This document shows positions 9,932 through 30,389 of a DNA stretch of 39,864 bases, one piece after another. A model generated the notes under the pieces. The model saw only the letters and a list, made by a program, of their open reading frames with translations, had not been told where the DNA came from and did not search any database. The position numbers and the translations under genes were made by a program. Origin of the DNA: a virus; the IMG/VR virus record IMGVR_UViG_3300021963_006995, positions 1 to 39,864 of that record. One strand, written 5' to 3'. Every line of letters begins with the position of its first letter. Position 1 is the stretch's first letter.

Positions 9932-11740
9932 TCAAAAGAAGTCCTTAAAAACGTTATAAGTTTCCATTTCCCTTCCTCCGGCATCCCCGGTAAGCCCTCC
10001 TTCACCCGATTCTGCTATCTTTTTGTTGATAGCATTCTTGTATTTTTCAGGGACCGTGTCATAAATATCCATTACTGAATACATGAAATCTTGATATTCA
10101 AAAACTGAATTTGCATTCACCAGTGTCATTGCTATGTCATCCTTTCCTATCTGACTTTGATAGATTCCCTTGCTAGTTTCACCAAAATTGCTCAGTTCTA
10201 GGATGGTGTTTATCTCTGTTGGGATTATTCTTGCATTTCTGGTGTTGATCTTTAAGTCCTCGCAGTATTTTTCTTTGGTCTTTGGTGTAACCTTAACCCC
10301 AGGCTTCATTTGCCTTGAGCTCTCTGTGTGTTTTGTGTAAACAAACATTTCTGAAAATAACTTCTCACCACTTAATAATTTTTCTATTAGATACTCCCCT
10401 CTATAGTCAACCTCCATCACTATCTTTATCTGCTCGGGATTAAATACCTCAGTACATAATATCTCTAAGAAAACCTTTAGCTCCTCTATTTGGATCATAT
10501 TAGATCTAAATAAACCAACTTGCAGAAGAGAGAAAAAGTCAGATTCGTCCTCGAAAAATTTCTTTTCCTCTATTAGAGCCAGTGGTTTGGGTGATATCTT
10601 TAATATATTAACAGCACTATAATCTCCTCCCCCTCCACCTGCTGTGTCTATTGATATGATAAACCTCTTGTTTTCTCCCTCTTCCCATAGATTGGATGGA
10701 TCAAAGCTTGGGTGCCAGGTAAGATCTGAGTAGTCTATTATTGAATTCTGAAATGGCAAAAGCTCCTTGTGTACAAATTGAACCTCGGTTTTCTTCAGCT
10801 TTTTTAGTGTATATGAATCTAGCAATAATTTAGAAGAGCTTAAAAACTGATTACCATATTCCTGGTTAAAATCTTCCTCGGATCCTAAATTGGCTATTTC
10901 TTTTCTTTTCCATTCCTCATCTCTTCCGGGAACCTGCCACCAATCCACTCTTATTGGGTTAAATTCATTTTGTCCTTCGATAGCTGATTTATAGATCTCG
11001 TAGAATTTATTCATTCCATTTGGGGTGGATGTGATAATAATTCTGGATATTTTGGAAGATGAAATGGTCGGATATACAGATTTAAAGAATTGTCCTATGA
11101 AATTTGGGTTAATGTGGGCAAACTCATCCATGTATAAGAAGTGCACAGTAAAACCGATAGAGGACTGTTTAGTTGTCGTCTTAGCCATTATTCTACATCC
11201 GTTATCAAACTTCATGGTCATAACGTTGTATACAAATACGCCGGGTTTTAAGAAGAATGGCAGACCCTTCATGATGATTTTGATCTTATCCATTAATTCT
11301 GTTGCAGTATCACCGATATTTGCAAGAATCATGGCGTTCTTATCAAAATTGAAAAGTAAATACCACAATAAAAATATGGAAGAGGTTACGGTTTTTCCAC
11401 TTTGTCTCGGACTTAGAAAGATATTAAATCGATGTTCTTGATATTGGCTTAGGATCTGCTCTTGATAATCTCTTAAAGTGATTTTTCTAATACCCTCATC
11501 GGTCATGGCATTACAATAGGTGTTAGCAAAATATCTAACATCAGATGCACATTTTTTGAATTCCTCTACTTCCCACTCGGTGTATTCAAACAATATACCA
11601 CCTCTTCTCAGCTCAGGATCGTTTTCGTGAAACGGATTATCGACATCTTTGAAATCAACTCCGTTTTCGTCAGCATTCTGGATTATTTTATTGACCCTCT
11701 CTGTGGTCCAATAATTACTTTGTTGTTTTTCTTCAGCCAT
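9932..11740 (-). CDS. 17: Terminase large subunit (gp17-like)
   Basis: This 602-aa packaging motor is the same size class as T4 gp17 (610 aa). The ATPase domain carries Walker A SPRQSGKT at 110-117, Walker B FLYMDE at 201-206 (catalytic E206) and the coupling motif TSTP at 237-240. The RNase H-fold nuclease has its acidic triad at D365 (ISIDTAG), in the MEVDYRG segment (about 443-445), and at D534/D535 (KDDIAMTL). A Gly-rich run follows D365. It cuts concatemeric DNA and pumps it into proheads through the portal. The gene starts 3 nt after the putative small-subunit gene, in T4 gene order. Confidence 0.97.
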   Translation of the reverse strand: MAEEKQQSNYWTTERVNKIIQNADENGVDFKDVDNPFHENDPELRRGGILFEYTEWEVEEFKKCASDVRYFANTYCNAMTDEGIRKITLRDYQEQILSQYQEHRFNIFLSPRQSGKTVTSSIFLLWYLLFNFDKNAMILANIGDTATELMDKIKIIMKGLPFFLKPGVFVYNVMTMKFDNGCRIMAKTTTKQSSIGFTVHFLYMDEFAHINPNFIGQFFKSVYPTISSSKISRIIITSTPNGMNKFYEIYKSAIEGQNEFNPIRVDWWQVPGRDEEWKRKEIANLGSEEDFNQEYGNQFLSSSKLLLDSYTLKKLKKTEVQFVHKELLPFQNSIIDYSDLTWHPSFDPSNLWEEGENKRFIISIDTAGGGGGDYSAVNILKISPKPLALIEEKKFFEDESDFFSLLQVGLFRSNMIQIEELKVFLEILCTEVFNPEQIKIVMEVDYRGEYLIEKLLSGEKLFSEMFVYTKHTESSRQMKPGVKVTPKTKEKYCEDLKINTRNARIIPTEINTILELSNFGETSKGIYQSQIGKDDIAMTLVNANSVFEYQDFMYSVMDIYDTVPEKYKNAINKKIAESGEGGLTGDAGGREMETYNVFKDFF

Positions 11741-11743
11741 ATA

Positions 11744-12538
11744 TTAAAATAAATCGTCGTCTAGCTCTATTTTAGTCTCGTCTTCGATTTGCTGCTTTAA
11801 TTCGTTTTCTGGGGTTATTAGATCTTTCATCTTAGGATCTATCAGGTTTTTGTCTACGTCTTCAATTATTTGTGCCTTTTTAACTATGACCTCTGTTTTG
11901 ATTACGTTTTGTAATCCCTCCATAAGAGTTTTGTTACCTCTAACTTTTACTGATCCACCTTCACCATTAATTCCCGGTATGGTAACAGGATTTCCTTCGC
12001 TGTCTACTATTTCTCTTTGTTGTATATTACCGGAATTTCTAGCCTCGTTATTTAAGTCTTTATATGTCTTTTCCATCTTGGAAAGATACTCCTGGAATTT
12101 TATAGGCATCTGCATCAATTGGTTCTGCATCTGCGTTAATACCTCAAAATTTCTAGCTTGATATTGTCCTCCAGCATCTATCTCATCAAGCATTTTAGTA
12201 ACGGCGTGTTGTGCTGTTCTTATTTGAAACGCCATCGTTGAAATACTCAGTGCATCTATTTTAGCTCTGTAGTTTACATAATCATCTTCGCTGATGATAT
12301 CAGTATCCATGTGAAATTTAATCAGCGATGTTAAAATAGCTTTAGATTCTGCTTCAACCTCAGTTTTTAGAGCATCGAAATTCATGATCCTTTCCGGCTT
12401 CATTGCGGGGATATCAGGAGCTGTTAGACCATCTAAAGTATCGTTCGAAAAAATTAGATCCTCCAATTGCTGTTTTTTTCTAAGCGCTTCTTCTACGTTT
12501 GGCTTAGTTGATGTATTTTTAGGGGGTCTTCTTGGCAT
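11744..12538 (-). CDS. Putative small terminase subunit or packaging-associated protein
   Basis: I chose the ATG at 12538 (MPRRPPKN), which lies 4 nt after the upstream stop, over an earlier ATG at 12589 inside the neighbouring gene. The 264-aa product has a basic Pro-rich head, a long helical and probably coiled-coil middle (about 45-185), a short Gly-rich hinge (PGINGEGGSVKV), and a very acidic end (EIELDDDLF type). Its position immediately before gp17 is that of the small terminase gp16, which is also helical and oligomeric, but T4 gp16 is only 164 aa. The assignment rests on synteny only. Confidence 0.5.
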   Translation of the reverse strand: MPRRPPKNTSTKPNVEEALRKKQQLEDLIFSNDTLDGLTAPDIPAMKPERIMNFDALKTEVEAESKAILTSLIKFHMDTDIISEDDYVNYRAKIDALSISTMAFQIRTAQHAVTKMLDEIDAGGQYQARNFEVLTQMQNQLMQMPIKFQEYLSKMEKTYKDLNNEARNSGNIQQREIVDSEGNPVTIPGINGEGGSVKVRGNKTLMEGLQNVIKTEVIVKKAQIIEDVDKNLIDPKMKDLITPENELKQQIEDETKIELDDDLF

Positions 12539-12542
12539 AAAT

Positions 12543-14705
12543 TTATCGGTTTTTAGCAATCTTAGGTAATTTAAGAACAGGCTTAGCATTATCTATAATA
12601 ATCGCTAATTGTGAATCTCCAACTACGTTCTGATTCAAGATTGCTGATTGTTTTTCTTTTTCTATCATGTTTTGGAAGATCCTTAAGTTACTTAAATATA
12701 AAGGTCCCCCAAGAACTTTGTATGAATTATTATCAGTATTCCAAGTTACTCTTTGATTGTCAGTTTCTAGGTCTGAAGTTAGTGCGTATGTATATTTATC
12801 GGTATTTAATCCCTCTTTATAGTGAACCATTCCTAGATCTGATGTCTGTGCTTCCGAATTTTCCGGGTCGTATAGCATTTGCCAAACGTTAATCGAGTGT
12901 TGTTTAAATATATTAGAAAAGTTAAATACAAATCCATACCATTCGTCAAGAGACGGAATGAAATATCCATTTGCTGATGGTGTTCCTGCACCGAACGGAG
13001 ATAGAATTTCCAGGTTGTTAATTAAAATTCTGAATGACCCAGTTTGAATGTACTCAGTACTTGATGTAGTTGTATTAGTTCCAGACCAGATCATTTGAAT
13101 CCATATTCCTTGATTATGAACATTTCTTCCGTATACCAAAGTTCTAGCCTGAGCTTTTTGTACCTTCCATGTGGCAAGGGATGCTGTTATTTCAGTTCCG
13201 TTATCTTTCACTTTAAAAGTGTACTCATCTGGAATTTCCAATACTTTAAAACCACCAGATCTTGGTGCATCAGCTAATACCGAAACGTAATTATCTCCTG
13301 TAGTCAATTTGTGAAGATTTGGCCAGGTTGAATACGTTATAAATCCGTCACCTTGTGTATATGAAGATATAGAAACCTTTGGTGCTGGTCGATTAACCAA
13401 TTTTGTTTTATCCACATAATTTCTGGTTTTAAACCAACAAGTAAATGACAATTCCTCTGTCTCGCTTAGGGATGGAATTGATTTATATCTTACAGCTTCT
13501 CTTTCCACCTCAGATTTACTAGCAGAATCTGGATCATCATATGTAAATCTTTCTAGATCATAATAACTATTAAAAACTATAGTCCAGTTATTATTCAAAT
13601 CAAATTCTATAATAGGAACATACTCATCGATATAAGCTCTGGTTGGATCCTCATTTCTTCTTTGCGATGATACGAAATATTGCTGTTTCTTTGTTACCTT
13701 TTCTATCTCGCTTTTGGTCTCTTCTCCAAATAGATCTGTCGTATTTACTGTGTAATCTAAAAGTTCCTGCTCTGCAACTTTATTGATGAACTGGGTGTTT
13801 TGCTTAACCTCATACTTCATCAATTGGCATTTAAAGTATACAGGATATAAATTAAAGTCCCTGTGCAGATATGTAGATTCTATCTGATAGATTCTATTGG
13901 TAAGTGGGAAGAAAATAATATCTCTTTTTCTTGGTGCTGCACCTTTACCGAAAATTCCTTCAAAATATTTTCTATCAATATCGATTTCTAAAGGCTGTTC
14001 AAATTGTATACCGAATGTATCGTATATTGGTTTATTGTCTGGAAATTTATTTCCAGGAACCATTACTTTAATACATTTTTCAGCAACAACATCAAATAAG
14101 CTGTACTCTTTAAGAACTACATCCTTACCTCTTCCATTAGGTTGAACCGAATAATAATTAACCTCATGCCCAAATAGTGTGTTTACTGCCTTACTTAAAT
14201 CTTGGTAGATGTTAATCCCTCTATTTACGTCATACGGTTTAAAGAGCTTATCTGCGGAGCAATCATTAAAAATAATAGATTTTGTGTACATCTCCTTAGA
14301 GCATAGAACAGCAGGTTTAGTTGCATAATCCCTGTAATCTATAACTCTGTATTTAAGATCCAGATCAAAATTATTTAAAACTATCTGGGGGTGCAAATTT
14401 GTTCCCTCTGAAAGATGCGGGCTTGCATCCTCGTCTGAATGAGCAGTGAATTTAAATTCTAGATAAAGATCCTTATCTGGGTTTAATTCTAATCCCTCTA
14501 TAACCTCTTGTTGAAGTGGCATCCACAAAGACCAGTTACTATTATTGATGCTCCATCTGAATTCCTTTAATAAATAACTGCTGGGTTCTTGCTCTTCCTC
14601 GGTTTCTATAATCCACCCATTAAAATTCTCAACGCCTTTAAATGGAGCATTATAGCTGATAATTCTATAGTTACCTATAGACGTAAATATAATAGGATCT
14701 GTCAT
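12543..14705 (-). CDS. Large virion structural protein, 720 aa
   Basis: I do not recognise a family. The protein is rich in aromatics and beta-forming residues, without signal peptide or membrane helix. The N-terminal third (1-240) contains FRWSINNSNWSLWMPL and LDLKYRVIDYRDY. The C-terminal half (about 400-690) has the ordering of a concanavalin/laminin-G-like sandwich (SFTCWFKTRNY, then GIWIQMIWSG, GSFRILINNLE, WYGFVFNFSNI, and GGPLYLSNLRIF). This layout often binds glycans. It sits between gp15-like and terminase genes and is co-transcribed with them, so a neck, collar or tail-attached role is likely. The domain reading is by eye only. Confidence 0.75.
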   Translation of the reverse strand: MTDPIIFTSIGNYRIISYNAPFKGVENFNGWIIETEEEQEPSSYLLKEFRWSINNSNWSLWMPLQQEVIEGLELNPDKDLYLEFKFTAHSDEDASPHLSEGTNLHPQIVLNNFDLDLKYRVIDYRDYATKPAVLCSKEMYTKSIIFNDCSADKLFKPYDVNRGINIYQDLSKAVNTLFGHEVNYYSVQPNGRGKDVVLKEYSLFDVVAEKCIKVMVPGNKFPDNKPIYDTFGIQFEQPLEIDIDRKYFEGIFGKGAAPRKRDIIFFPLTNRIYQIESTYLHRDFNLYPVYFKCQLMKYEVKQNTQFINKVAEQELLDYTVNTTDLFGEETKSEIEKVTKKQQYFVSSQRRNEDPTRAYIDEYVPIIEFDLNNNWTIVFNSYYDLERFTYDDPDSASKSEVEREAVRYKSIPSLSETEELSFTCWFKTRNYVDKTKLVNRPAPKVSISSYTQGDGFITYSTWPNLHKLTTGDNYVSVLADAPRSGGFKVLEIPDEYTFKVKDNGTEITASLATWKVQKAQARTLVYGRNVHNQGIWIQMIWSGTNTTTSSTEYIQTGSFRILINNLEILSPFGAGTPSANGYFIPSLDEWYGFVFNFSNIFKQHSINVWQMLYDPENSEAQTSDLGMVHYKEGLNTDKYTYALTSDLETDNQRVTWNTDNNSYKVLGGPLYLSNLRIFQNMIEKEKQSAILNQNVVGDSQLAIIIDNAKPVLKLPKIAKNR

Positions 14706-14725
14706 CGCTTCTATATATCAGCGAA

Positions 14726-15523
14726 TTATTTAATGGTCTTTTCAGAAACAATGTTAATTCCTTTTAAAATTGTGGAATTATCCTCAGGAACCACCCCAAT
14801 CTCTGTTTTTACTTTGATACCTCCTTGCATCAGATTACCTCTAAATCTTTCAGTTGTTAGATCTAATTGTGGAAGATAGGTTTCAGTGTTAACCGAAAGG
14901 GTTAGAGTTATTCCCTCGCCTCTTGTGCTTCCGTAGCTGAATGCGAACTGATTTGGTGTTTTTTCTGGTACGGTATCTGGTAAAGAAACCTGAACCGGGA
15001 TTCTAAATCCGTTGTATTCGAAATAGTAGATAAAGTTTTTGAATAAAACCTCAATTACTCTTGCTTGTATTTTTAGTGCATCGGTTGTTGTGTCTACTTT
15101 GATTTTAAGATTAAATGTTGCATCTATTGGTATAGGAGACAAATAAGCAGAATATGCTCGCATTTCTGATCCTCCGCTATCTTGCATTATTTCTTTTTCG
15201 TAGGTTCCTCTAACATATTTGTTTGTCGATGATGCTGTGTTTACTCTTGATCCTGAATATTCTAGTATACCCCTCGGAATAACGTCATAATTACCTTCTG
15301 CAAAAGCAGGATTGCCATCACAATCTCCATAATTCAGATAAAAATCTTGCAGGAAAGATTCGTCTCCTGCTAGTGAATAAAAGAACGGGATGTAGATTTC
15401 TTGAATATTACCACCGCTAGTTGTTTGAAAATATGTTATTTTCTCGTTTAGTGCTTTTAACATACCTATGATAAGTCCTCTAAAGAAGATGTCATCGCTG
15501 TTAAATTTGTCTAAAAAATTCAT
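14726..15523 (-). CDS. 15: Tail terminator / tail completion protein (gp15-like)
   Basis: This 265-aa protein closely follows T4 gp15 (272 aa) in layout. It has an N-terminal helix then NIQEIYIPFFYS, a VIPRGILEYSG strand (T4: LPRINLHLVDFSY), the YLSPIPIDATFNLKIKVDTT hairpin (T4: YNPSPIKMIYELSIFTR), a long helix (IQARVIEVLFKNF), FRIPVQVSLPD, and a closing EGITLTLSVNTETYLPQ (T4: WSLTFEVNGWMYPP). In T4, gp15 forms the hexameric ring that caps the finished tail and joins it to the head. It stands upstream of the terminase/sheath genes, agreeing with the T4 order. Confidence 0.8.
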   Translation of the reverse strand: MNFLDKFNSDDIFFRGLIIGMLKALNEKITYFQTTSGGNIQEIYIPFFYSLAGDESFLQDFYLNYGDCDGNPAFAEGNYDVIPRGILEYSGSRVNTASSTNKYVRGTYEKEIMQDSGGSEMRAYSAYLSPIPIDATFNLKIKVDTTTDALKIQARVIEVLFKNFIYYFEYNGFRIPVQVSLPDTVPEKTPNQFAFSYGSTRGEGITLTLSVNTETYLPQLDLTTERFRGNLMQGGIKVKTEIGVVPEDNSTILKGINIVSEKTIK

Positions 15524-15528
15524 AAATT

Positions 15529-15849
15529 TTATCTTATGTTCCTACTTTCCTCTACCAAAACATCTATTACTGGGAGTTCTGTATATTTGAACTCTATAGG
15601 TAAATTTTTCTGATTCGTGTACTTAGGATGCAAAAATGATCCCTGTCTGTAAAGATTCTCACTAAGCTCGTAAACATTTGTGACATATTCGTCGGTTAAA
15701 AATGCCTTACCTCTACTGGAGGAAACTGGATTTTCAAACCTGTAAATAAAGAATTCACTAGCTGGAAGCTTGGAAAGGGATCTTTTGTTGTTTTTAGTAA
15801 CAAAGAAATAAGAGTATTTTTCTATATCGTTTCTAGATGATATCGCCAT
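15529..15849 (-). CDS. Hypothetical protein, 106 aa, first gene of the tail block
   Basis: I do not recognise this protein. It is a small soluble protein with FFVTKNNKRSLSKLP and a beta-rich middle (EFFIYRFENPVSSSRGKAF). It ends 6 nt before the gp15-like gene and has AGGAG close to its ATG, one of the few Shine-Dalgarno-like sites in the window. Co-transcription with the tail genes suggests a minor neck or tail component. Confidence 0.7.
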   Translation of the reverse strand: MAISSRNDIEKYSYFFVTKNNKRSLSKLPASEFFIYRFENPVSSSRGKAFLTDEYVTNVYELSENLYRQGSFLHPKYTNQKNLPIEFKYTELPVIDVLVEESRNIR

Positions 15850-15869
15850 ACTCCTATATATTGAAATTC

Positions 15870-17534
15870 CTATACCTTCTCTATAAGAAGATCCGAGAAG
15901 TTGTTTCTTTTTTGAATCTCCATCTTGTAATCAAATATTTCGGTAGGCATAGGTGCATGGTTTATAACAAACACATTTAAGCCAAGATCGTCACATATTT
16001 TTCTCAGCGTGTTTAATATCGTATAAACGCCATCAGGATCTACTGAGCTAAAGATTTCATCGAGGAATAGTAGATTTATGGAGCTAAATCTTATTTTCAT
16101 TAATTTAATAACGGAAAGAAGGACTGCGAAATCCACTTTTTTCATCTCCCCAGTACTGAGTGTGGATGTTGATATCTCCTCTCCCATATGAACCACAGAT
16201 GCGTTAAAATCCTCGTCGAAAGTAACTGTATAGGGAAGATGCAAAGAATTCATTAATTCTGAGATATTTCCATTTAATGACGGTAAAATAGTCTTTAGTG
16301 CAAGTTGTTTTACCCCTTTATCACCAAGAACGTCTTCTATTTTCTTAATCCATTCATTTTTCTTTTCCTCCTTTGCTTTATCCTGTGTAAATTCTTGAAC
16401 TGATTCTCTAGTTTCCTCTGCAATTCTTTTCAGAGAATCCAACCCCTGTGACGAAGGAGCATTCTTCAATCTTTTAAGTTCTTCCTTTGCAGAATTTATA
16501 TTGATTGATATCTTGTTTCCTTTTTCTGTGATGGCGGATTTTTCTTTTCTCAATTCTCCCTCTTGCTTAAGAGAATCGTCATAACTTTTTTGATTCTCCT
16601 CTAGATCTTTTTTAAATCCATCCAATTGTCTGTTTAATTCATCTTTCACACTCTGGTGAAACGATCCAGATAAATCAGATTCGCATGTTGGGCATTTATC
16701 ATTATCGTAAAGCTTAATCTTCTTCTCTACAGTTCTGATAGATTCGTTACTATTGGTAATGATTCTGTACAACTTCCTAGTTTGATCGCTAACCTCAGAT
16801 TCGGTCTTGTTAAACCCTTCCATTTTTTCTTTATGGATAGTCGCTAGCGATGAGAATTTAGATATTTTATCCTCCAGAGTTTTTATTTCATCCTTTGATG
16901 TTTCTTTTATCTTTTCGGACAAAGACTCCATTTCGTTCTGGGTTTTTAATATAGTCTTTGATAGAGCTTCTATTTCACCATTGATGCGGATGATATTTTC
17001 CCTAATGCCTTTAGATTCTTCTTTTAAAAGATCTCTCATCTCATTAATGACATAGAATCCAAAGATCTTGTCTATGATAGATTTTTTATCTGCAGGTGAC
17101 ATTTTAAGAAAGCTCTTAAAATCATTGATAGAGAGGGAGATTGTGTTGTTAAAAACGTAATTAGGAATTTGAATGATGTCATCGGTTAGATATTCCTGAA
17201 CAGATCTCGATCCTGCTTTATCGTATAGATCTCCATTAACATACAAATTAAATAGAGAAGGATCTAATCCTCTCTCTACCATATATTCTTCACCATTAGA
17301 AACAAAGGTTATTTTAACCCACGCATTTCCGTTGATTCTATTCGGGATATCTTTTAATTTTTTTCCATCTAGCTTTCCATATAATCCGAATGTTATAACA
17401 TCAGAGATTGTGGATTTACCTGCTCCATTTTCTCCGACAACTAAATATAGACCAGTATTTTCATCAAGTGTTAAGGATTGTATCTTATTTCCATAAGATG
17501 CAAAATTTCTCCATTCAATCTTGGTTAATTTCAT
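15870..17534 (-). CDS. 46: Recombination nuclease ATPase subunit (gp46-like, SbcC/Rad50 family)
   Basis: This 554-aa SMC-like ATPase partners gp47 in DNA end resection, host DNA breakdown and recombination-dependent replication. Walker A GENGAGKS is at 34-41. Two coiled-coil arms (about 180-280 and 290-400) flank the zinc hook CPTC at 281-284. The ABC signature LSTGEMKK is at 459-466, Walker B NLLFLDEIF at 487-495, and the switch His at 526 (INHA). Its ATG overlaps the gp47 stop by 4 nt, so the subunits are translationally coupled. Length matches T4 gp46 (560 aa). Confidence 0.96.
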   Translation of the reverse strand: MKLTKIEWRNFASYGNKIQSLTLDENTGLYLVVGENGAGKSTISDVITFGLYGKLDGKKLKDIPNRINGNAWVKITFVSNGEEYMVERGLDPSLFNLYVNGDLYDKAGSRSVQEYLTDDIIQIPNYVFNNTISLSINDFKSFLKMSPADKKSIIDKIFGFYVINEMRDLLKEESKGIRENIIRINGEIEALSKTILKTQNEMESLSEKIKETSKDEIKTLEDKISKFSSLATIHKEKMEGFNKTESEVSDQTRKLYRIITNSNESIRTVEKKIKLYDNDKCPTCESDLSGSFHQSVKDELNRQLDGFKKDLEENQKSYDDSLKQEGELRKEKSAITEKGNKISININSAKEELKRLKNAPSSQGLDSLKRIAEETRESVQEFTQDKAKEEKKNEWIKKIEDVLGDKGVKQLALKTILPSLNGNISELMNSLHLPYTVTFDEDFNASVVHMGEEISTSTLSTGEMKKVDFAVLLSVIKLMKIRFSSINLLFLDEIFSSVDPDGVYTILNTLRKICDDLGLNVFVINHAPMPTEIFDYKMEIQKRNNFSDLLIEKV

Positions 17535-20688: not shown

Positions 20689-21856
20689 CCTCTTCTGTTT
20701 CTTCTTCTCCGTTAACTATAGCATCAAGCTCGTTCATGTCGAATAGATCTGGTAATAGGAAATGTGGCTTAATCGCCTTCTCGTCTATTTTTCTTAGCAC
20801 ATCTTCGGTGAAAACCTCCGGTGTAAATAATTGTGAAGAAAAGATTGATTTACCCAAATGAGCAACTGCCCATTTTGTAGACGATGCACTAGCAGTAAAT
20901 TCTAATTCTCCTGTCTTTTTATCAACCTCTAATTTTCCTCTTTCAATTCCGCAAACATCCCAAGAAATAAATTCCTCTAAACCAACGTATGGATTCATAC
21001 CATTAATGAATGAAATATGGAATTTAGTAGCATATGGTCTGGTAAATCTTGTTTTCTTTGGGGTTGATGTAACAATAATACCTGTTTTCTTATCGTTGCT
21101 ATCTTTAAGTTGTGCTTTAGATAACATGATCACATTACTCATAGAGAAGATTGGACCATCACCACCGGAAGCTTCTTTGGTTGTCATAAAACTTCCAATG
21201 CCTGCTGTGGTTGTGTGGTTGGTACAGATTAAAGGAATTCTAACACCTGTTAGATCCAATGTGATTTCTCTGAATAAACCTCTCATTTCCTTAGATCTAA
21301 TACCCATATCCATTGCTGTTTTGCCCTTTAGTGCATCAGCGGATTCTTTCATTGTGGTAAGCATTCCTAATGAATCTAAAACTAGCAGGATCTTAGGATC
21401 TGCTCCTTCTTTTCTTGCTTTCTTGATTTGATCGACAAGATTTGCAACAAATATTTTAAAATCGGAAATAGATTTGATAGGTTGATATCTAACAGTGTTT
21501 GTGTCTATACCAAATTTCTTTGCCATTGATCGGTCAATAGCTCCTTCTGTGTCACAATAAATCACGTTATATCCTTGTTTTTGTGACTCTCTCACAATGT
21601 TCATACAAAGAAAACTCTTGCCAGTTTGTGGATCTCCGGCAATTCCCATTGATCTGTTATTGGCTACACCTCCGAAAAGACTTCCGGAAAGCTGAGCGTT
21701 TAAAACGTAATTACCGGTTCCGATCCATTCGGTAACCTCTGAGAATTCATTTTCTTCTAAAATAGATCCTGCTTCAAATCCCTCAATTTTCGAAAGTTGT
21801 TTATCCAGATCAAGAAAAGAGAATTCCTTCTTTGATGTTGATTTTTCTTTAGCCAT
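20675..21856 (-). CDS. uvsX: RecA-like recombinase UvsX
   Basis: This 393-aa protein, same length class as T4 UvsX (391 aa), forms filaments on single-stranded DNA and carries out strand exchange, starting recombination-dependent replication. Walker A GDPQTGKS is at 74-81, the catalytic Glu in CDTEGAID (101-108), and Walker B ILLVLDSLG at 156-164. A loop with LICTNHTTTAGIGS follows. The C-terminus is strongly acidic, as in RecA and UvsX, where it tunes DNA binding. It is the first gene of the replication operon; no obvious ATATATA box was seen immediately upstream, where a terminator separates it from the lipoprotein gene. Confidence 0.95.
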   Translation of the reverse strand: MAKEKSTSKKEFSFLDLDKQLSKIEGFEAGSILEENEFSEVTEWIGTGNYVLNAQLSGSLFGGVANNRSMGIAGDPQTGKSFLCMNIVRESQKQGYNVIYCDTEGAIDRSMAKKFGIDTNTVRYQPIKSISDFKIFVANLVDQIKKARKEGADPKILLVLDSLGMLTTMKESADALKGKTAMDMGIRSKEMRGLFREITLDLTGVRIPLICTNHTTTAGIGSFMTTKEASGGDGPIFSMSNVIMLSKAQLKDSNDKKTGIIVTSTPKKTRFTRPYATKFHISFINGMNPYVGLEEFISWDVCGIERGKLEVDKKTGELEFTASASSTKWAVAHLGKSIFSSQLFTPEVFTEDVLRKIDEKAIKPHFLLPDLFDMNELDAIVNGEEETEEDGEE

Positions 21857-23457: not shown

Positions 23458-23694
23458 TTATTGTTCGGATTTTTTTAAAATAGAATAAATAAGAGCACAT
23501 TTCTCATACTCTTCTGTGCTTTTAAAGTGATCTATCATGGATTCCAGGGTTTCCCTAGAATCCCTTCTATTGGCTATAGAATAATGATTTTGGGATTCCA
23601 AACATCTGTATAAATCATTATATGCCTCTGTTATAGAATCGTCGATGGAGGAATCAAAAAGATCACTCTCCCTTAAATTGTTTAGATTTTCCAT
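23458..23694 (-). CDS. Hypothetical protein, 78 aa
   Basis: I do not recognise this protein. It is small, acidic and helical (SITEAYNDLYRCLESQNHY, then RETLESMIDHFKSTEEYEKC). The TPR-like spacing of aromatic and Ala/Leu residues at about 20-75 is suggestive only. It follows the terminator at 23735-23760, so it has its own transcription start or depends on read-through. Confidence 0.6.
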   Translation of the reverse strand: MENLNNLRESDLFDSSIDDSITEAYNDLYRCLESQNHYSIANRRDSRETLESMIDHFKSTEEYEKCALIYSILKKSEQ

Positions 23695-23734
23695 AGTCCA
23701 AATGTATTAGCATTTTTCGAAACAAAAAAATGAA

Positions 23735-23760
23735 ACAAAAAACCCACCGATTTGGTGGGG
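23735..23760 (-). terminator. Rho-independent terminator
   Basis: The 6-bp GC-rich stem CCCACC / GGTGGG, loop GATTT, is followed on the minus strand by T6. It sits 14 nt after the stop of the 141-aa gene. Confidence 0.8.
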
Positions 23761-23774
23761 CTAGATAGTTGGTT

Positions 23775-24200
23775 TTAAATCCCGGATTCTGAAATCGACA
23801 TTATTTGTTGATGGACCCTACCTAGTGAGGATGTCAATTTGAAATTAATTTTTCTTTCCACCCCTCTTTTTCTGGACTCTAAGTGATTTAGGAATCTTTT
23901 AGTGAGATCGTATGCTATAACTGTGGGAATTGATATATCGTAAGAGTATAAGCCATTGGTAACGATGATTCTATCACTTTCTATTCTACAAATTACCTCT
24001 TTATATTCTATAAAGAATGTGCCGGAAAGGACAGAATAAACCAATTTAGAATCTGTGTGAGATATTAGATAATTTGCAATCTCAACTATTTTTGATTGAT
24101 TCTCTTTGAGTTCTTTTAATGCTTTTTTAAGATCCGATTTTCTTCTTTTACTCAGATACCTCTTTATTCTGTGCAAGATTATTGATTTGATCCTCTTCAT
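23775..24200 (-). CDS. Hypothetical basic protein, 141 aa
   Basis: I do not recognise this protein. The first 40 residues are very basic and helical (HRIKRYLSKRRKSDLKKALKE), suggesting nucleic-acid or membrane-surface binding. A beta-rich middle follows (KLVYSVLSGTFFIEYKEV, ESDRIIVTNGLYSYDI), then a basic helix. Its start overlaps the 5'-nucleotidase gene by 53 nt, an unusually long overlap here; no later Met gives a better start. It is the last gene of the unit. Confidence 0.6.
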   Translation of the reverse strand: MKRIKSIILHRIKRYLSKRRKSDLKKALKELKENQSKIVEIANYLISHTDSKLVYSVLSGTFFIEYKEVICRIESDRIIVTNGLYSYDISIPTVIAYDLTKRFLNHLESRKRGVERKINFKLTSSLGRVHQQIMSISESGI

Positions 24201-25766: not shown

Positions 25767-25836
25767 TATAGTGTATTATCTTGTATTTCTATCCCAAAAA
25801 TGAGAAAATATTTCGAACACTCGTTGTTTATTTTTT

Positions 25837-25844
25837 GATATATA
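25837..25844 (+). promoter_or_regulatory. ATATATA box before the plus-strand operon
   Basis: GATATATAAACAAATG: the box ends 5 nt before the ATG of the first plus-strand gene. So close a position would give an almost leaderless message, so it may be part of the translation start rather than the promoter. Confidence 0.3.
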
Positions 25845-25849
25845 AACAA

Positions 25850-26668
25850 ATGAGAAAGGTTTTAAACTTTAAAGGATTTTTGAATGAGAGCTCTTTTGGA
25901 TCTCTTAGCGCATTTGTATTTGTCCCGGTTGACAAAAATTTCAAATCTTTAGATAAAGATATAGCGAATTCAAAGCTTTCTCTTCCCTCCCAAAGAAGTA
26001 ACTCAGGGGTAGCGGGATATTTGGTAGTTCCCGCAACTGTAGAAACTAATGAGCTATTGAAAAGTCCGTATTTTTCTGGAGGCAACAATTCTGGGGTCTC
26101 AGGTCGCATCGGATACACGAAGACAACATCTAAGGATGGGATTATAGTTATGAATGCGGGCGAAGAATTCAAATCTGGATCAGCAACTGGGGTAGCTTCG
26201 ATAACTGCGGAAGTTCCTGGATTTGGTCAAAATTCAGCATACTACTTTAAGTCAGGTAATGCTTTGATATTAGAGACCCTGATGAAAAAAGAGTACTGGG
26301 ACGAAGAAACAATTGCAGACATAAAGGGGAGAAAGATAGGAAACGGGTTTCCGTCGAATACCACTTTAACGTATCAAGCATTTGGTGGGATAGAGGAAGC
26401 TGCTAAATTGATCAAAGAATTATTTGCAGCAAGCTCTGGAGATATTGGATTGAAATTCGAAGACCCTGAAGTTGAAAAAAAATATGACACCACAGATTTT
26501 CTTTTACAAATATTCACAAAGAGCCCAGCAGAATTTGTTGAACTAAATTTTTCAGAGGGGACTTTCGAAAAGATATCAGCACTAGCAAAAGAATCAGGAA
26601 CTGAAGAGGTTTCAAACACAATAGACAATCTTAGCGATTTAAAATCTGCAGGATTTTTCGAAGATTAA
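25850..26668 (+). CDS. Hypothetical protein with T4 capsid-targeting-like N-terminus, 272 aa
   Basis: I start at 25850 (MRKVLNFKGFLNESS) and not at the in-frame ATG at 25781, because the latter lies ahead of the ATATATA box and has a poor leader. The N-terminus has the M-basic-x-x-NFxxF-x-x-E/S pattern also found on the next two genes, and resembles the propeptide of T4 internal head proteins (MKTYQEF type). The rest is soluble, with Gly/Ser-rich beta segments (GVAGYLVVPATV, GIIVMNAGEEF, ASITAEVPGFG) and an alpha-helical C-terminal third. No family recognised. It is the first gene of the operon with the MoxR and VWA genes. Confidence 0.75.
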   Translation: MRKVLNFKGFLNESSFGSLSAFVFVPVDKNFKSLDKDIANSKLSLPSQRSNSGVAGYLVVPATVETNELLKSPYFSGGNNSGVSGRIGYTKTTSKDGIIVMNAGEEFKSGSATGVASITAEVPGFGQNSAYYFKSGNALILETLMKKEYWDEETIADIKGRKIGNGFPSNTTLTYQAFGGIEEAAKLIKELFAASSGDIGLKFEDPEVEKKYDTTDFLLQIFTKSPAEFVELNFSEGTFEKISALAKESGTEEVSNTIDNLSDLKSAGFFED

Positions 26669-26680
26669 CAAACAAAATAG

Positions 26681-28171
26681 ATGAAAAGAATACAAAACTT
26701 TAAAACATTTAGCTCTGTAAACGAGGCAAATCTTTTTTCAAGAGGTTTAGATATTGCAAAAAAAGCTGGCAATTGGCTAATGAATTTAGTAAAAGCCCAG
26801 GACAAAAATGAAATTCCTGTCAGGGATAAGAAGTATAATCCTGAATCAGAAAGCTTTGACGATCAATCAAGTCCTGAGCCTTTCATAAAGATACATCTTC
26901 CGGAAGGTTCGAAAAGCGGAGATTATAAATTCACCAGAAAATTTGAAAACGAAATGAGCGAATCAGAACCCGCTTGGAAAATTGCACAAAAGACACAGGA
27001 TCCAGAAATAGATGATGTTAGCGCTCCTGAACTTAAAAAAGAGTTAACATACCATTTTAAAAATCCAGAATCTGGAAGACCCCTTTTAATATGGGGTGCT
27101 CCTGGTATCGGTAAAACATCCATAGTTAAATCCTTTGGATTAGAGGATATGGGTGTTCCTGTTATTGAGGTAATTCTTAGTTTAATGGAACCAACGGATG
27201 TCGCTGGTTTACCTGGTGCTGAGGCTGATAAGAAATACGGTGACGTTAAAAGATCCGTTAACTATCTTCCTATGATATGGCCATTAGATAATGGACCAGA
27301 TGGTAAAGGTGGTATTATATTCTTGGACGAAATCAACAGAGCGCATCCATCAGTACAAGCAGCAATGCTTAAAGTCGTACTTGATAGAGAAATTGCAGGA
27401 GCTAATTATAAAATACCTAGTAAATGGTTAATCCTTGCTGCTGCAAATAGACCAGAAGATGAACCAGGCGGTTTAATCAGACCAATGAGCTTTGCACTTG
27501 CTAATAGATTTGCACAGGTGAATCTTATATCAGATCCCTCAAGTTGGACAGGATGGGCAAGAAAGAAGGGATTAAGCGACGATGTGGTTTCATTTGTTGA
27601 GTTGATGCAGGAATATTTCTATATGATGCCAGGTTCATTATCCACATACGATACAACAATGGGGGTTACACCAAGAGCTTGGGACTATGCAGCCAAAGAA
27701 TATCAAGACAGAAAAGACGAGGCAGAAGCAAATGGTACACAACTAAGTGAATTGGAAATATCCAAAATATTCAATAAGCATTTGGGTAAAAAGGTATCCT
27801 CTGTTATCACAGACTTCCTGGAGACAACTAAGGTTTGGCCTATCAATAGAATAACTAAGATCTTTAAAGATCCAACAGATCCTTCAATAGAATTACCAAT
27901 GTCAGCATCAGGTAAATATGATTTAAGAAAATCGTATGCTGTTATGTATATGGTATCTAAATACAATTCTGGACAACAATTAACCAAAGACGAATTCACA
28001 AATTTCATCACATATCTAACAAATTTAAATTCCGGAGAAATCGCAATGAGTGGATTAAATATGATTAAAAGAACTCATCCGGAAGTTAAGAATTATCTAG
28101 GTGATACTTCTCTTGAGCAATATGTAACCCCATTTGTTAACAAATATAAGGGCTTCATGAAGGAAATCTAA
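26681..28171 (+). CDS. MoxR-family AAA+ ATPase
   Basis: This 496-aa protein has a roughly 120-residue N-terminal part beginning MKRIQNFKTFSSVNEA (capsid-targeting-like) and a MoxR-type AAA+ core. Walker A GAPGIGKT is at 139-146, Walker B IIFLDEINR at 212-220, sensor 1 AAANRPED at 253-260, and the ALANRF motif, with its Arg finger, at about 272-277. MoxR ATPases usually pair with a VWA protein and act as chaperones that activate or remodel a partner. The next gene encodes that partner, 1 nt away. The N-terminal targeting-like motif hints that the pair could be packaged in the head. Confidence 0.93.
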   Translation: MKRIQNFKTFSSVNEANLFSRGLDIAKKAGNWLMNLVKAQDKNEIPVRDKKYNPESESFDDQSSPEPFIKIHLPEGSKSGDYKFTRKFENEMSESEPAWKIAQKTQDPEIDDVSAPELKKELTYHFKNPESGRPLLIWGAPGIGKTSIVKSFGLEDMGVPVIEVILSLMEPTDVAGLPGAEADKKYGDVKRSVNYLPMIWPLDNGPDGKGGIIFLDEINRAHPSVQAAMLKVVLDREIAGANYKIPSKWLILAAANRPEDEPGGLIRPMSFALANRFAQVNLISDPSSWTGWARKKGLSDDVVSFVELMQEYFYMMPGSLSTYDTTMGVTPRAWDYAAKEYQDRKDEAEANGTQLSELEISKIFNKHLGKKVSSVITDFLETTKVWPINRITKIFKDPTDPSIELPMSASGKYDLRKSYAVMYMVSKYNSGQQLTKDEFTNFITYLTNLNSGEIAMSGLNMIKRTHPEVKNYLGDTSLEQYVTPFVNKYKGFMKEI

Positions 28172-28172
28172 T

Positions 28173-29774
28173 ATGAGAAGATTAAGAAATTTTCAGGAGT
28201 ATCAATTATTAAAAGAGAGCTTTTCTAACTACGGAATGACCGAAGAGAACTACGAAAAATCGGTCATGAGAGTAAAAAGATGTATTTCTAAAATCCTGAT
28301 GAAAGGTGGATTTTTCGGAAATGTGCTATCTGAAATTCCAGTAGCAGTTTCTAAAGAATGTGAATTCTTTTCAACCGACGGAACTGTCTTTATATTCAAT
28401 CCAGAAAATATATTAGAAATGAGCGATGATGAGGTCATCTGGGCAATCAATCAAGGAATTATACATCTTGCTCTGCAACATTTTGACAGAAAGCAGGATA
28501 AAGATCAATCTATCTGGAACAGAGCATGTGACATAGCTGCGGAGCCTTATTTAGAGGGTATCGGGAAATCTATCCTTCCCTCCAAATACAAAGATCCTAA
28601 ATTTGGAGGAAAATCTGCTGAAGAAATATATGCAGAATTAGAAAAAGCAGGAGAAGACACGTTTTATAAATCATACTGTGATGTTCTAGAACCTGGTGAA
28701 ATCGATACGGAAAAAACAACAGAGACTGTAATGGGGGAGATTGATTCCGTTAGAGGTGAGGAAGAACACAGGTTAGACAAGAAAGAATTCAAAGATAAGA
28801 GGGAAGAAACTGAAGACGAAGAGGGTGAAGAAAAAACACCAGGTGAAGGGGATGAGAAAAGCCCAGGAGAAGATGGGGAAGGTGAGAATCAGGAAGGAGA
28901 ACCAGGCGAAGATGGGGAGGGAACACCAGGAGAAGGAGGAGAAACCACAGACAAAGAAGGAAAGGATCAAAGAGGTGAGACATCAGACGAGGAAGGTGAA
29001 CCTAGTGAAGAATGGGGAGAAGGCGGAGATGGAGAAGATAAAAAAGACTGGGACGAAAAAATAGAAAAGAAAGAACCAGTAAACAAAAAAGAAATCTCCA
29101 AGAAAATACAAGAGATAACGGAGAGAGCAGCCAATAAAGGAACTGGCGGAGGAGGTGTTTCTCCAGCTCTTAGAAAATTCATAGAGGATTTGGTAAATCC
29201 ACAGGTTGATTGGAGAAAGATCTTACAAAGATACGTATCTGAATCTGATGATGATCCTACGATGTATAAGATACCTAATAGAAGATTCGCTTCTAGAGAT
29301 TTATATCTTCCAGGATTAAAGGGGAAAGAAGAAGGATTTGGAACAGTAGTTATTGCAGTTGATACCTCAGGGAGTATAGGGCAGGATGAATACAATACAT
29401 TCTTGGCAGAATCTAGAAGTGTATTAAAAACCTTTCAGCCAAAGGAGATATACATTATCTACTGTAGCGATGGGATGGAACCTCCTTCAGGTGGAATTGA
29501 CAGATTAGCATCTGCAGCTCAGCCTTTAGATAAATCCAAACAAATGTCTACGGGAGGTAATGGCGGCGGATTTGATCCACCGATCAAATGGGTAGAAGAA
29601 AATCTAATCAAAAAAGGCAAGGATTTAGCTTGTATGATATACTTTACCGACGGTGGTGCAGAAGATCCTGAGAAACCAAAATGGCACAGAAAGATGATAT
29701 GGGCAATGACTACTAGTCATAAAATGCCTTTCGGTAAACATGTGAATGTTCCGGTTAATAAATTAAGAAAATAG
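28173..29774 (+). CDS. VWA-domain protein with degenerate metallopeptidase-like domain (DUF2201 type)
   Basis: This 533-aa MoxR partner begins MRRLRNFQEYQLLKES, sharing the head-protein-like N-terminus. The N-terminal metallopeptidase-like domain carries QGIIHLALQH at 94-103 and IWNRACDIAAE at about 114-124; the family's HExxH is degraded to QGxxH, so zinc catalysis is probably lost. A roughly 90-residue acidic Gly/Glu/Pro linker (about 205-295) follows. The C-terminal VWA domain has MIDAS DTSGS at 397-401 and is preceded by VDWRKILQRYV and the IPNRRF...LYLPGL segment typical of this family. It ends KHVNVPVNKLRK, followed by stop TAG. MoxR/VWA pairs serve as metal- or protein-insertion machines. 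Confidence 0.88.
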   Translation: MRRLRNFQEYQLLKESFSNYGMTEENYEKSVMRVKRCISKILMKGGFFGNVLSEIPVAVSKECEFFSTDGTVFIFNPENILEMSDDEVIWAINQGIIHLALQHFDRKQDKDQSIWNRACDIAAEPYLEGIGKSILPSKYKDPKFGGKSAEEIYAELEKAGEDTFYKSYCDVLEPGEIDTEKTTETVMGEIDSVRGEEEHRLDKKEFKDKREETEDEEGEEKTPGEGDEKSPGEDGEGENQEGEPGEDGEGTPGEGGETTDKEGKDQRGETSDEEGEPSEEWGEGGDGEDKKDWDEKIEKKEPVNKKEISKKIQEITERAANKGTGGGGVSPALRKFIEDLVNPQVDWRKILQRYVSESDDDPTMYKIPNRRFASRDLYLPGLKGKEEGFGTVVIAVDTSGSIGQDEYNTFLAESRSVLKTFQPKEIYIIYCSDGMEPPSGGIDRLASAAQPLDKSKQMSTGGNGGGFDPPIKWVEENLIKKGKDLACMIYFTDGGAEDPEKPKWHRKMIWAMTTSHKMPFGKHVNVPVNKLRK

Positions 29775-29777
29775 AAT

Positions 29778-30389
29778 ATGAAAAGAATTTTTTCAATGAT
29801 CGCTGTTGTGATTTTATTTGCAATAACAGCAAAAGCGCAAGAAGATGTTAAAGTTAAGAATCAAGTTTTTGAGATACTTTACTCCCAAAATCTAGAACAG
29901 CCAATCTGGATCAAGTATAGATCTACTAACAGACCAACAAACGTGAACAGAGGTTCTATGGATTTTTACAAGGAACCTAATATCAAAACATCGGATGCAG
30001 ATGATTATAGAACAAATGTATACGACAAAGGACACGGGGCTCCTGCTGCAACCTTCTCTGATAATATGGAAAATCTAAAACAAACATTCTCCTATCTAAA
30101 TAGCATATTACAAAATCAATATCTTAATAGAGGATCTTGGAGATTGTTAGAAGAACAAATACGTAAATGGGACGATTCAGAGAATATCACAGTTATAATT
30201 AATTTATCCTTCGATAATCCAGCAAAAAGAGTTCCTACGAATGCTGCAATACCATCTAAATTAGACAAACACGTTTATTTCGAAACACAGAAAAAATGGA
30301 AATGCTTTTCTTTCCCTAATGAAAAACCTCTAGTTGAATGGGAAAAATCCGAAATCAAGTGTACCAATAAAGAGATACATTCTAAATAA
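29778..30389 (+). CDS. Secreted non-specific endonuclease (NUC1/EndoG family)
   Basis: This 203-aa protein has a signal peptide (MKRIFSMIAVVILFAITAKA, cleavage after residue 20) and a betabetaalpha-metal nuclease domain. The active site is DKGH at 83-86 (family DRGH; catalytic H86), followed by GAPAATF. The metal-binding Asn is at about 117 in YLNRGSW, and the ensuing WRLLEEQIR resembles WARLEDQER of Serratia nuclease. The Arg of DRGH is Lys here, which may lower activity. The C-terminus has no membrane anchor. It follows the VWA gene by 3 nt and has a terminator behind it. It should act in the periplasm or outside. Possible roles are degrading DNA of competing phages or free DNA. Confidence 0.88.
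   Translation: MKRIFSMIAVVILFAITAKAQEDVKVKNQVFEILYSQNLEQPIWIKYRSTNRPTNVNRGSMDFYKEPNIKTSDADDYRTNVYDKGHGAPAATFSDNMENLKQTFSYLNSILQNQYLNRGSWRLLEEQIRKWDDSENITVIINLSFDNPAKRVPTNAAIPSKLDKHVYFETQKKWKCFSFPNEKPLVEWEKSEIKCTNKEIHSK

Follow-up and report, generated by a model that had tools for sequence, protein, structure and literature searches.

Putative T4-like capsid-targeting sequences on a MoxR-VWA pair and its upstream neighbour in an uncultured large phage

A peptide of about ten residues that steers proteins into the head of phage T4 has been known since 1996 (PMC9026906). This capsid-targeting sequence (CTS) is borne by the T4 proteins IPI, IPII and IPIII (Mullaney & Black 1996, as reviewed in PMC9026906), where residues 4 and 7 act in targeting, and residues 8 and 10 in processing (PMC9026906). 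Head and ejection proteins of SPN3US and phiKZ have N-terminal propeptides that are cut by the prohead protease (PMC5694885). In phages, Iyer et al. 2021 described a MoxR-vWA pair that includes a metallopeptidase domain, and proposed that it has a role in virion assembly (PMC7824862).

The stretch of DNA analysed here, a window of 39.9 kb from an uncultured large phage, contains three + strand ORFs in a row. The first, ORF1 (25850..26668, + strand, 272 aa), had an automatically assigned TTG start at 25781; we used the ATG at 25850 instead, because this start is kept in all relatives. ORF1 gave zero Pfam or PHROG matches, no relative in GTDB genomes or the phage collection and nothing meaningful in the PDB; its homologues are found in close relatives only, and an AlphaFold2 model from five sequences was unusable (pLDDT 47). 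The second ORF encodes a MoxR-type AAA+ ATPase (26681..28171, + strand, 496 aa; phrog_1297, 8e-56; Pfam AAA_5/AAA_3 above cut-off) with an N-terminal extension of ~110 residues, and the third a DUF2201_N and DUF2201 VWA-like partner (28173..29774, + strand, 533 aa; PF13203, 2e-27; PF09967, 3e-10; phrog_1314, 6e-68). The ATPase has both GAPGIGKT and FLDE, and the partner has the MIDAS motif DTSGS, so that the AAA+ Walker A/B and MIDAS motifs identify a MoxR-VWA pair. In the adjacency of the two genes and in these motifs, the locus resembles the MoxR-vWA (DUF2201) pair of group 2.2 jumbo phages (PMC7824862), from which it differs in that both proteins have presumed removable N-terminal tags and the VWA protein of the window has lost the metallopeptidase-like HExxH. 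The latter is replaced by INQGIIH, whereas the LR756500 orthologue keeps it intact (IMHEVLH); HExxH in DUF2201_N is a trait of the phage version, and not of all MoxR-VWA pairs. Downstream of the VWA gene lies an untagged DNA/RNA non-specific endonuclease gene (29778..30389, + strand; Pfam PF01223, 2e-19), whose orthologue in G001 (IMGVR_UViG_3300032331_003609, a 245-kb relative with a MoxR 95% identical to that of the window) has the signal-peptide-like N-terminus MKKILALLLIITLSIGVNAED.

The first-pass annotation had pointed out that the three consecutive genes share a T4-like N-terminus, and the N-termini are indeed as it quoted them. The tags are MRKVLNFKGFLNE followed by S in ORF1 (25850..25888, + strand; presumed cut after E13), MKRIQNFKTFSSVNE followed by A in the MoxR extension (26681..26725, + strand; presumed cut after E15) and MRRLRNFQEYQLLKE followed by S in the VWA protein (28173..28217, + strand; presumed cut after E15), which gives the predicted cut sites FLNE↓S, SVNE↓A and LLKE↓S. 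Orthologues of the MoxR tag read MKRIQDFKTFTGVNE and MKRIKGFQEFNRLNE, each followed by A, and the VWA tag reads MKYIKSYENFIFE in LR756500 (orthologue 32% identical overall) and MRKIRNFAEYGILLE in G005, a 219-kb relative, each followed by N. In ORF1, F7/F10/L11/E13 occupy P7/P4/P3/P1, with spacing identical to that of Y4/F7/I8/E10 in T4 IPII/IPIII; T4 residues 4, 7, 8 and 10 correspond to the conserved P7, P4, P3 and P1 of the tag. Pairing residues 4/7 of T4 with residues 4/7 of the tag was rejected, since alignment on the cut site pairs T4 Y4/F7 with tag F7/F10. The MoxR and VWA tags miss the strict seven-residue motif because two extra residues separate the cut from the aromatic pair, and for MoxR such a separation has a T4 counterpart in MKTFKEF...TITE↓A; the V at P3 of the MoxR site is a conservative departure from (L/I)xE.

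Among four orthologues per gene, tag residues 4 (V/I/L), 7 (F), 10 (F/Y) and the E preceding the presumed cut are fixed, while the intervening residues vary and the codons of conserved residues vary synonymously. As read from these sequences, tag conservation acts at the protein level. To count tags we used the register M..[ILVYFMA]..[FY]..[FYWILM] plus an early basic residue, with expectations from shuffled N-termini. In the window, 3/43 gene starts match (0.15 expected), all of them operon genes, and the earlier statement that the motif is not seen on other genes holds at this scale. It fails genome-wide, with matches at 16/271 gene starts in G001 (0.8 expected, shuffle maximum 4), 11/227 in G005 (0.7 expected) and 34/630 in LR756500 (2.3 expected, shuffle maximum 9). 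Scanning beyond the window, which had been proposed as a check, thus uncovered a large tagged set among related giant phages, in which dozens of otherwise unrelated genes carry the tag. In PTm1, MaF61, Lak-A1 (part), PAU and the gp21-bearing G049, the tag suite is not above shuffles. Chryseobacterium phage MA9V-1, a cultured phage, has three candidate tags: MKNFFSFINE↓A, MKTFTCFINE↓A and MKTFFNFVNE↓S. These comparative counts largely refute chance likeness, descent of the three genes from one ancestor or an mRNA-level translation-initiation signal, which we regard as very improbable: the genes are adjacent and the pattern was picked by a reader after seeing it, but Pfam and PHROG searches show the three proteins to be unrelated apart from the tag, the enrichment persists in genomes that played no part in the choice of pattern, and the synonymous changes fall at conserved residues.

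The cut site provides a further test, in which genes were picked by residues 1-10 alone and (L/I/V)xE was then sought next. In G001, it follows the tag in 10/16 tagged genes vs 24/255 other genes (p=1e-6), and it is also enriched in G005 (p=3e-5), LR756500 (p=2e-12) and LR756501 (p=3e-5). Internal cut sites are depleted in tagged proteins (observed/expected 0.68 vs 1.21; permutation 0.0002). The protease and capsid genes are known from relatives, the window's own contig being without them and too short to show the protease: a gp21-type protease (phrog_207) is found in G001 (2e-35), G005 and G009, and the gp23-type capsid protein of G001 has LNE↓S at the expected place, a presumed cut that matches the tag cut sites. 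The prohead protease and cut site that the first-pass annotation proposed to look for are accordingly represented by this enzyme in relatives and by (L/I/V)xE after the tags. In addition, a matrix built from LR756500 tags only ranks IPII and IPIII as the top 2 of 250 T4 genes (12.9 bits; next 6.6).

Like the T4 CTS, the tag is short, N-terminal and carried by unrelated cargo genes, has two hydrophobic/aromatic residues three apart and then (L/I)xE↓A/S/G/N, and occurs alongside a protease of the gp21 type and a capsid protein of the gp23 type. It differs in that about 5-6% of all genes are tagged in these phages, compared with a handful in T4, in usually having three more N-terminal residues (E13, not E10), and in a cargo that includes an AAA+ machine. 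The internal head proteins of SPN3US and phiKZ share the N-terminal propeptide for a prohead protease (presumed here), but several of their propeptides exceed 100 residues, with no shared short motif, and only that of gp45 is ~20 residues long (PMC5694885).

In this phage group and in four megaphages (LR756501, LR756502, LR756504 and LR745206), the protease-scaffold protein contains a 14-residue repeat (YSEYLAEN) with the same core as the tag, aromatic-x-x-aromatic-(L/I/V)-x-E, whereas in T4 this motif shows no such explicit repeat. The protease-scaffold holds 14/31 proteome copies of [FYW]xx[FYW][LIV]xE, those of the four megaphages hold 11-14 copies, and the protease-scaffold ranks first for internal matches to a tag-derived matrix in four genomes. 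The tag resembles a single scaffold repeat attached to the N-terminus of a cargo protein, although LR756500, with abundant tags but degenerate scaffold repeats (2 strict copies), counts against this reading. Short amphipathic N-termini are able to bind membranes, and an endolysin-like protein and metabolic enzymes, which are not classic head cargo, are among the tagged set; the motif could then be a signal unrelated to the head, serving for docking to a membrane or compartment or for stability, with (L/I/V)xE a coincidental part of a helix. We consider this improbable, given that cut sites follow the tag yet are depleted inside the same proteins, that the seven-residue motif recurs in the protease-scaffold, and that the tag matrix matches IPII/III. 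That the N-termini are capsid-targeting propeptides like that of T4, as proposed earlier, has strong support from these observations, from the gp21-type protease and from the joint absence of the tags in the relative G008.

Directly upstream of the operon lies the element GATATATAA (25837..25845, + strand), a candidate late promoter; the 8-mer GATATATA has its sole + strand copy in the window at this position. In G001, the same 8-mer precedes the tail sheath, portal and protease-scaffold genes and many tagged genes. Tagged genes are preceded by it more often than other genes are in G001 (7/16 vs 23/255, p=6e-4) and in G005 (6/11 vs 23/214, p=8e-4), with no such enrichment in LR756500 or LR756501. 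This shared element suggests late expression of the operon, and in both G001 and G005 tagged genes directly follow the capsid gene. That the element also stands before head and tail genes, together with the virion-assembly role proposed by Iyer et al. 2021 (PMC7824862), would fit a function of MoxR-VWA and ORF1 as an assembly chaperone, brought into the prohead by the tags for capsid or scaffold remodelling and not delivered to the next cell. We judge this possible but rather unlikely. In the relative G008, MoxR-VWA is kept (MoxR up to 71% identical), but ORF1 and both tags are jointly absent, and the tags are missing from most MoxR-VWA pairs of phages, which argues against the tag belonging to a conserved role in assembly. 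Most other tagged proteins are also unlike chaperones (LRR proteins, a nucleotidyltransferase, PPK2, methyltransferases). Against the capsid-targeting reading itself, many gp21-bearing phages have an untagged MoxR, so MoxR need not be in the head. A PADLOC scan of the tagged proteins gave a single clear defence-family match (mad2, 8e-19), so we do not propose that the set as a whole acts in counter-defence.

The three N-termini are thus probably capsid-targeting sequences of the T4 kind, resembling scaffold repeats and cut by a gp21-type protease, with the cargo retained in the head. During head assembly, the tag would let ORF1, MoxR and VWA enter the scaffold core like extra scaffold repeats; the gp21-type protease, fused to the scaffold, would cut after E in both scaffold and tags; and as the scaffold disintegrates, the freed cargo would remain inside the head together with the DNA. 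It might then be ejected into the next host, as the T4 internal proteins are. Loading of tagged proteins into the prohead is well supported, and we infer scaffold binding and cleavage of the tags. The idea of the first-pass annotation that MoxR-VWA travels in the virion and reaches the cell along with the DNA is tentative, and a prohead role during assembly would leave identical sequence marks; ejection into the host and action of MoxR-VWA there are the least certain parts of this explanation.

The exact binding site of the T4 targeting peptide is not named in the reviewed literature, and the scaffold repeat is a likely partner; if true, scaffold mimicry would also explain the importance of positions 4 and 7 in the T4 tag. 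The tag offers a sequence handle to predict head-travelling proteins among the unknowns of giant phages, and the AAA+ machine is a candidate delivered effector. On balance, we lean towards the view that tens of proteins, MoxR-VWA included, are loaded into the heads of this giant-phage lineage by means of a portable scaffold-repeat copy, and that the protease that dismantles the scaffold would free this cargo.

Three consecutive plus-strand genes of the window begin with a short N-terminal tag resembling the T4 capsid-targeting sequence, as the first-pass annotation had claimed: ORF1 (25850-26668; MRKVLNFKGFLNESS), which matches no known family, a MoxR-type AAA+ ATPase (26681-28171; MKRIQNFKTFSSVNEA) and a DUF2201_N/VWA protein (28173-29774; MRRLRNFQEYQLLKES). 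The tag is the sole feature common to these otherwise unrelated proteins, and its register occurs in 3 of the 43 gene starts scanned in the window, against 0.15 expected from shuffled N-termini, being absent from every other gene start there. The metallopeptidase-like HExxH of the VWA protein is gone (INQGIIH); the orthologue in LR756500, an uncultured 462-kb phage genome, keeps HEVLH. The 39,864-base sequence, an IMG/VR virus record by itself, also codes for a terminase, tail sheath, tail tube, UvsX, a DnaB-type helicase, gp46/47-like proteins and a sigma factor, and is thus a fragment of a T4-like myophage.

In the tag of T4 internal protein IPIII, targeting depends mainly on residues 4 and 7 and processing on residues 8 and 10, and gp21 cleaves after L/I-x-E (PMC9026906). 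When aligned on the cut site, T4 Y4, F7, I8 and E10 correspond to F7, F10, L11 and E13 of ORF1, and to Y7, F10, I/L11 and E13 in LR756500. In the tags of MoxR and VWA the cut lies two residues further on, a longer spacing that T4 also offers in MKTFKEFTSTTTPVSTITE/A (slash, presumed cut). A weight matrix derived from 22 LR756500 tags alone, applied to 250 T4 genes, gave ranks 1 and 2 (12.9 bits; next 6.6) to internal proteins II and III. On this sequence evidence the window tags are probably of the T4 type, in line with the initial proposal of an internal-protein-type propeptide.

IMG/VR yielded three close relatives of the window phage, the largest of which, G001 (244,850 bp), was read piecewise over its whole genome; genes were called mechanically from the first ATG throughout the analysis. 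A search pattern requiring M..[ILVYFMA]..[FY]..[FYWILM] and a basic residue near the start fits 16 of its 271 gene starts against 0.8 expected (300 shuffles, maximum 4), and 13 once orthologues of the three window genes are excluded. This pattern was picked after viewing the three window sequences, the fair test being the relatives except G001-G003: it fits 11 of 227 gene starts in the relative G005 (219 kb; 0.7 expected) and 34 of 630 in LR756500 (2.3 expected), where the commonest tags are MKYIKEYEEFILE/A or near variants. A genome-wide scan, as suggested at first pass, reveals an excess in all three genomes, and the claim that the motif is limited to the three genes holds within the window and fails in the relatives. 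Pattern-free counts of aromatics peak at residues 7 and 10 in G001, G005 and LR756500, and at residues 5 and 8 in LR756501 (735 kb; first 381 kb read), whose shifted form, MIKKFxxFxxE, is found in about a tenth of gene starts (48 of 485, 6.0 expected; positions 1-381000).

Tagged genes of LR756500.1 cluster around 11700-17000, 180000-201800 and 312900-332600, with several near-identical tags and some genes resembling one paralogous family (…LELIAKLAKVS…). At ~209888-211500 G005 (IMGVR_UViG_3300008110_010000) encodes an additional MoxR, a paralogue tagged in its own right (MPSIKKFDQYVNE/D), and behind it a gene with a tag-like start; G011 shows this arrangement too. Where the window has seemingly only an ~80-bp gap (~23694-23775), G001 has two divergent tagged genes (105170-106564), which suggests that tagged cargo has been gained or lost between these close relatives. 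In Sphingomonas phage PAU, MKTxxxLYEA, perhaps another tag variant, stands at the start of both gp152 (112151), annotated as a scaffolding protein, and gp154 (113313), annotated as an 'internal capsid protein'.

A prohead protease gene and a presumed cut site, which the first-pass annotation had proposed to look for, were both found, the protease gene in relatives. With tagged status assigned from residues 1-10 only, [LIV]xE[GASNQED] within residues 10-25 occurs in 10 of 16 tagged against 24 of 255 other genes in G001 (p 1e-6), 8 of 11 against 29 of 216 in G005 (p 3e-5), 21 of 34 against 58 of 596 in LR756500 (p 2e-12) and, for the shifted form, 19 of 48 against 60 of 437 in LR756501 (p 3e-5). 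Deeper cut sites stand at 0.68 of the composition-based expectation in tagged proteins and 1.21 in untagged ones (permutation p 0.0002), a scarcity expected where proteins encounter the protease. A gp21-type protease is encoded at 161872-163953 of G001 (L023:9872-11953; phrog_207, 2e-35), and all long relatives with a tagged MoxR (G001, G005, G009) have one. G001 also codes for two portal genes, full-length and side by side (145351-148680, both phrog_213), and for a gp23-type capsid protein with LNE/S at the position where T4 gp23 is cleaved.

A long tail fused to the G001 protease consists of some fifteen repeats of 14 residues, KNISYSEYLAENLD; each (YSEYLAEN...) has LAE/N or a near variant, a presumed self-cut site. 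The motif [FYW]xx[FYW][LIV]xE, derived from the T4 tag and those of the window and relatives, has 31 copies in the G001 proteome, 14 in this protease-scaffold (0.15 expected) and 4 at gene starts. Similarly laid-out fusions, previously unexamined, hold 14 copies in LR756501 and 11 apiece in LR756502, LR756504 and LR745206. The LR756500 matrix places the protease-scaffold first in number of internal matches among all proteins of G001, G005, LR756501 and LR756502, though the scaffold of LR756500 itself is degenerate. Since the capsid protein cut site lacks the two aromatics, these are not merely a protease requirement. The most economical interpretation makes the tag a copy of one scaffold repeat, by which a tagged protein would join the scaffold core. 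A 1691-aa protein at 21458 of LR756501.1 (L208) has seven FVKYL(A/I)E-like repeats ~60 residues apart that fit the same motif.

The commonest 8-mer ahead of genes in G001 and G005 is GATATATA, which precedes many tagged genes as well as those for tail sheath, portal and protease-scaffold. In both genomes it is over-represented ahead of tagged genes (p 6e-4 and 8e-4, respectively). Its single plus-strand copy in the window, at 25837, lies immediately 5' of ORF1. The element may be a late promoter, although some copies sit very near the ATG and LR756500 and LR756501 show no such enrichment.

A Pfam search of 93 tagged proteins matched, among others, LRR (6), AAA_5 (3), DUF2201_N (2), nucleotidyltransferase-like (2), PPK2, thioredoxin, PNK3P phosphatase, methyltransferase, DeoC aldolase, CHAP and GNAT. 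The main rival for function is that MoxR-vWA acts in assembly inside the head, a role in assembly having been proposed for the phage pair by Iyer et al. (PMC7824862). Diversity of cargo, as with the diverse internal proteins of T4 (PMC3012670), is easier to reconcile with delivered effectors than with structural parts, short of proof, the virion location being a prediction from sequence. A search of open-access literature turned up discussions of capsid-targeting sequences for T4, SPN3US and P1, and none of this tag set or of the scaffold-repeat match.

The tag behaves as a separable module. MoxR of distant phages (about 25-37% identity) usually starts at the ATPase domain, untagged. The LR756500 orthologues of MoxR (MSFKNFTQYSEHISINLLAE) and VWA (MKYIKSYENFIFE/N; 32% identical) keep the tag pattern with changed residues and an unalignable linker. 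In the relative G008 (IMGVR_UViG_3300044638_008123; MoxR best segment 71% identical) the MoxR-VWA operon has the position and upstream element of its tagged relatives, and ORF1 and both tags are jointly missing, with starts corresponding to residue ~93 for MoxR and ~21 for VWA, while other G008 genes are tagged. The tag is thus dispensable for MoxR-VWA as such, and appears to decide the destination of the ORF1-MoxR-VWA set.
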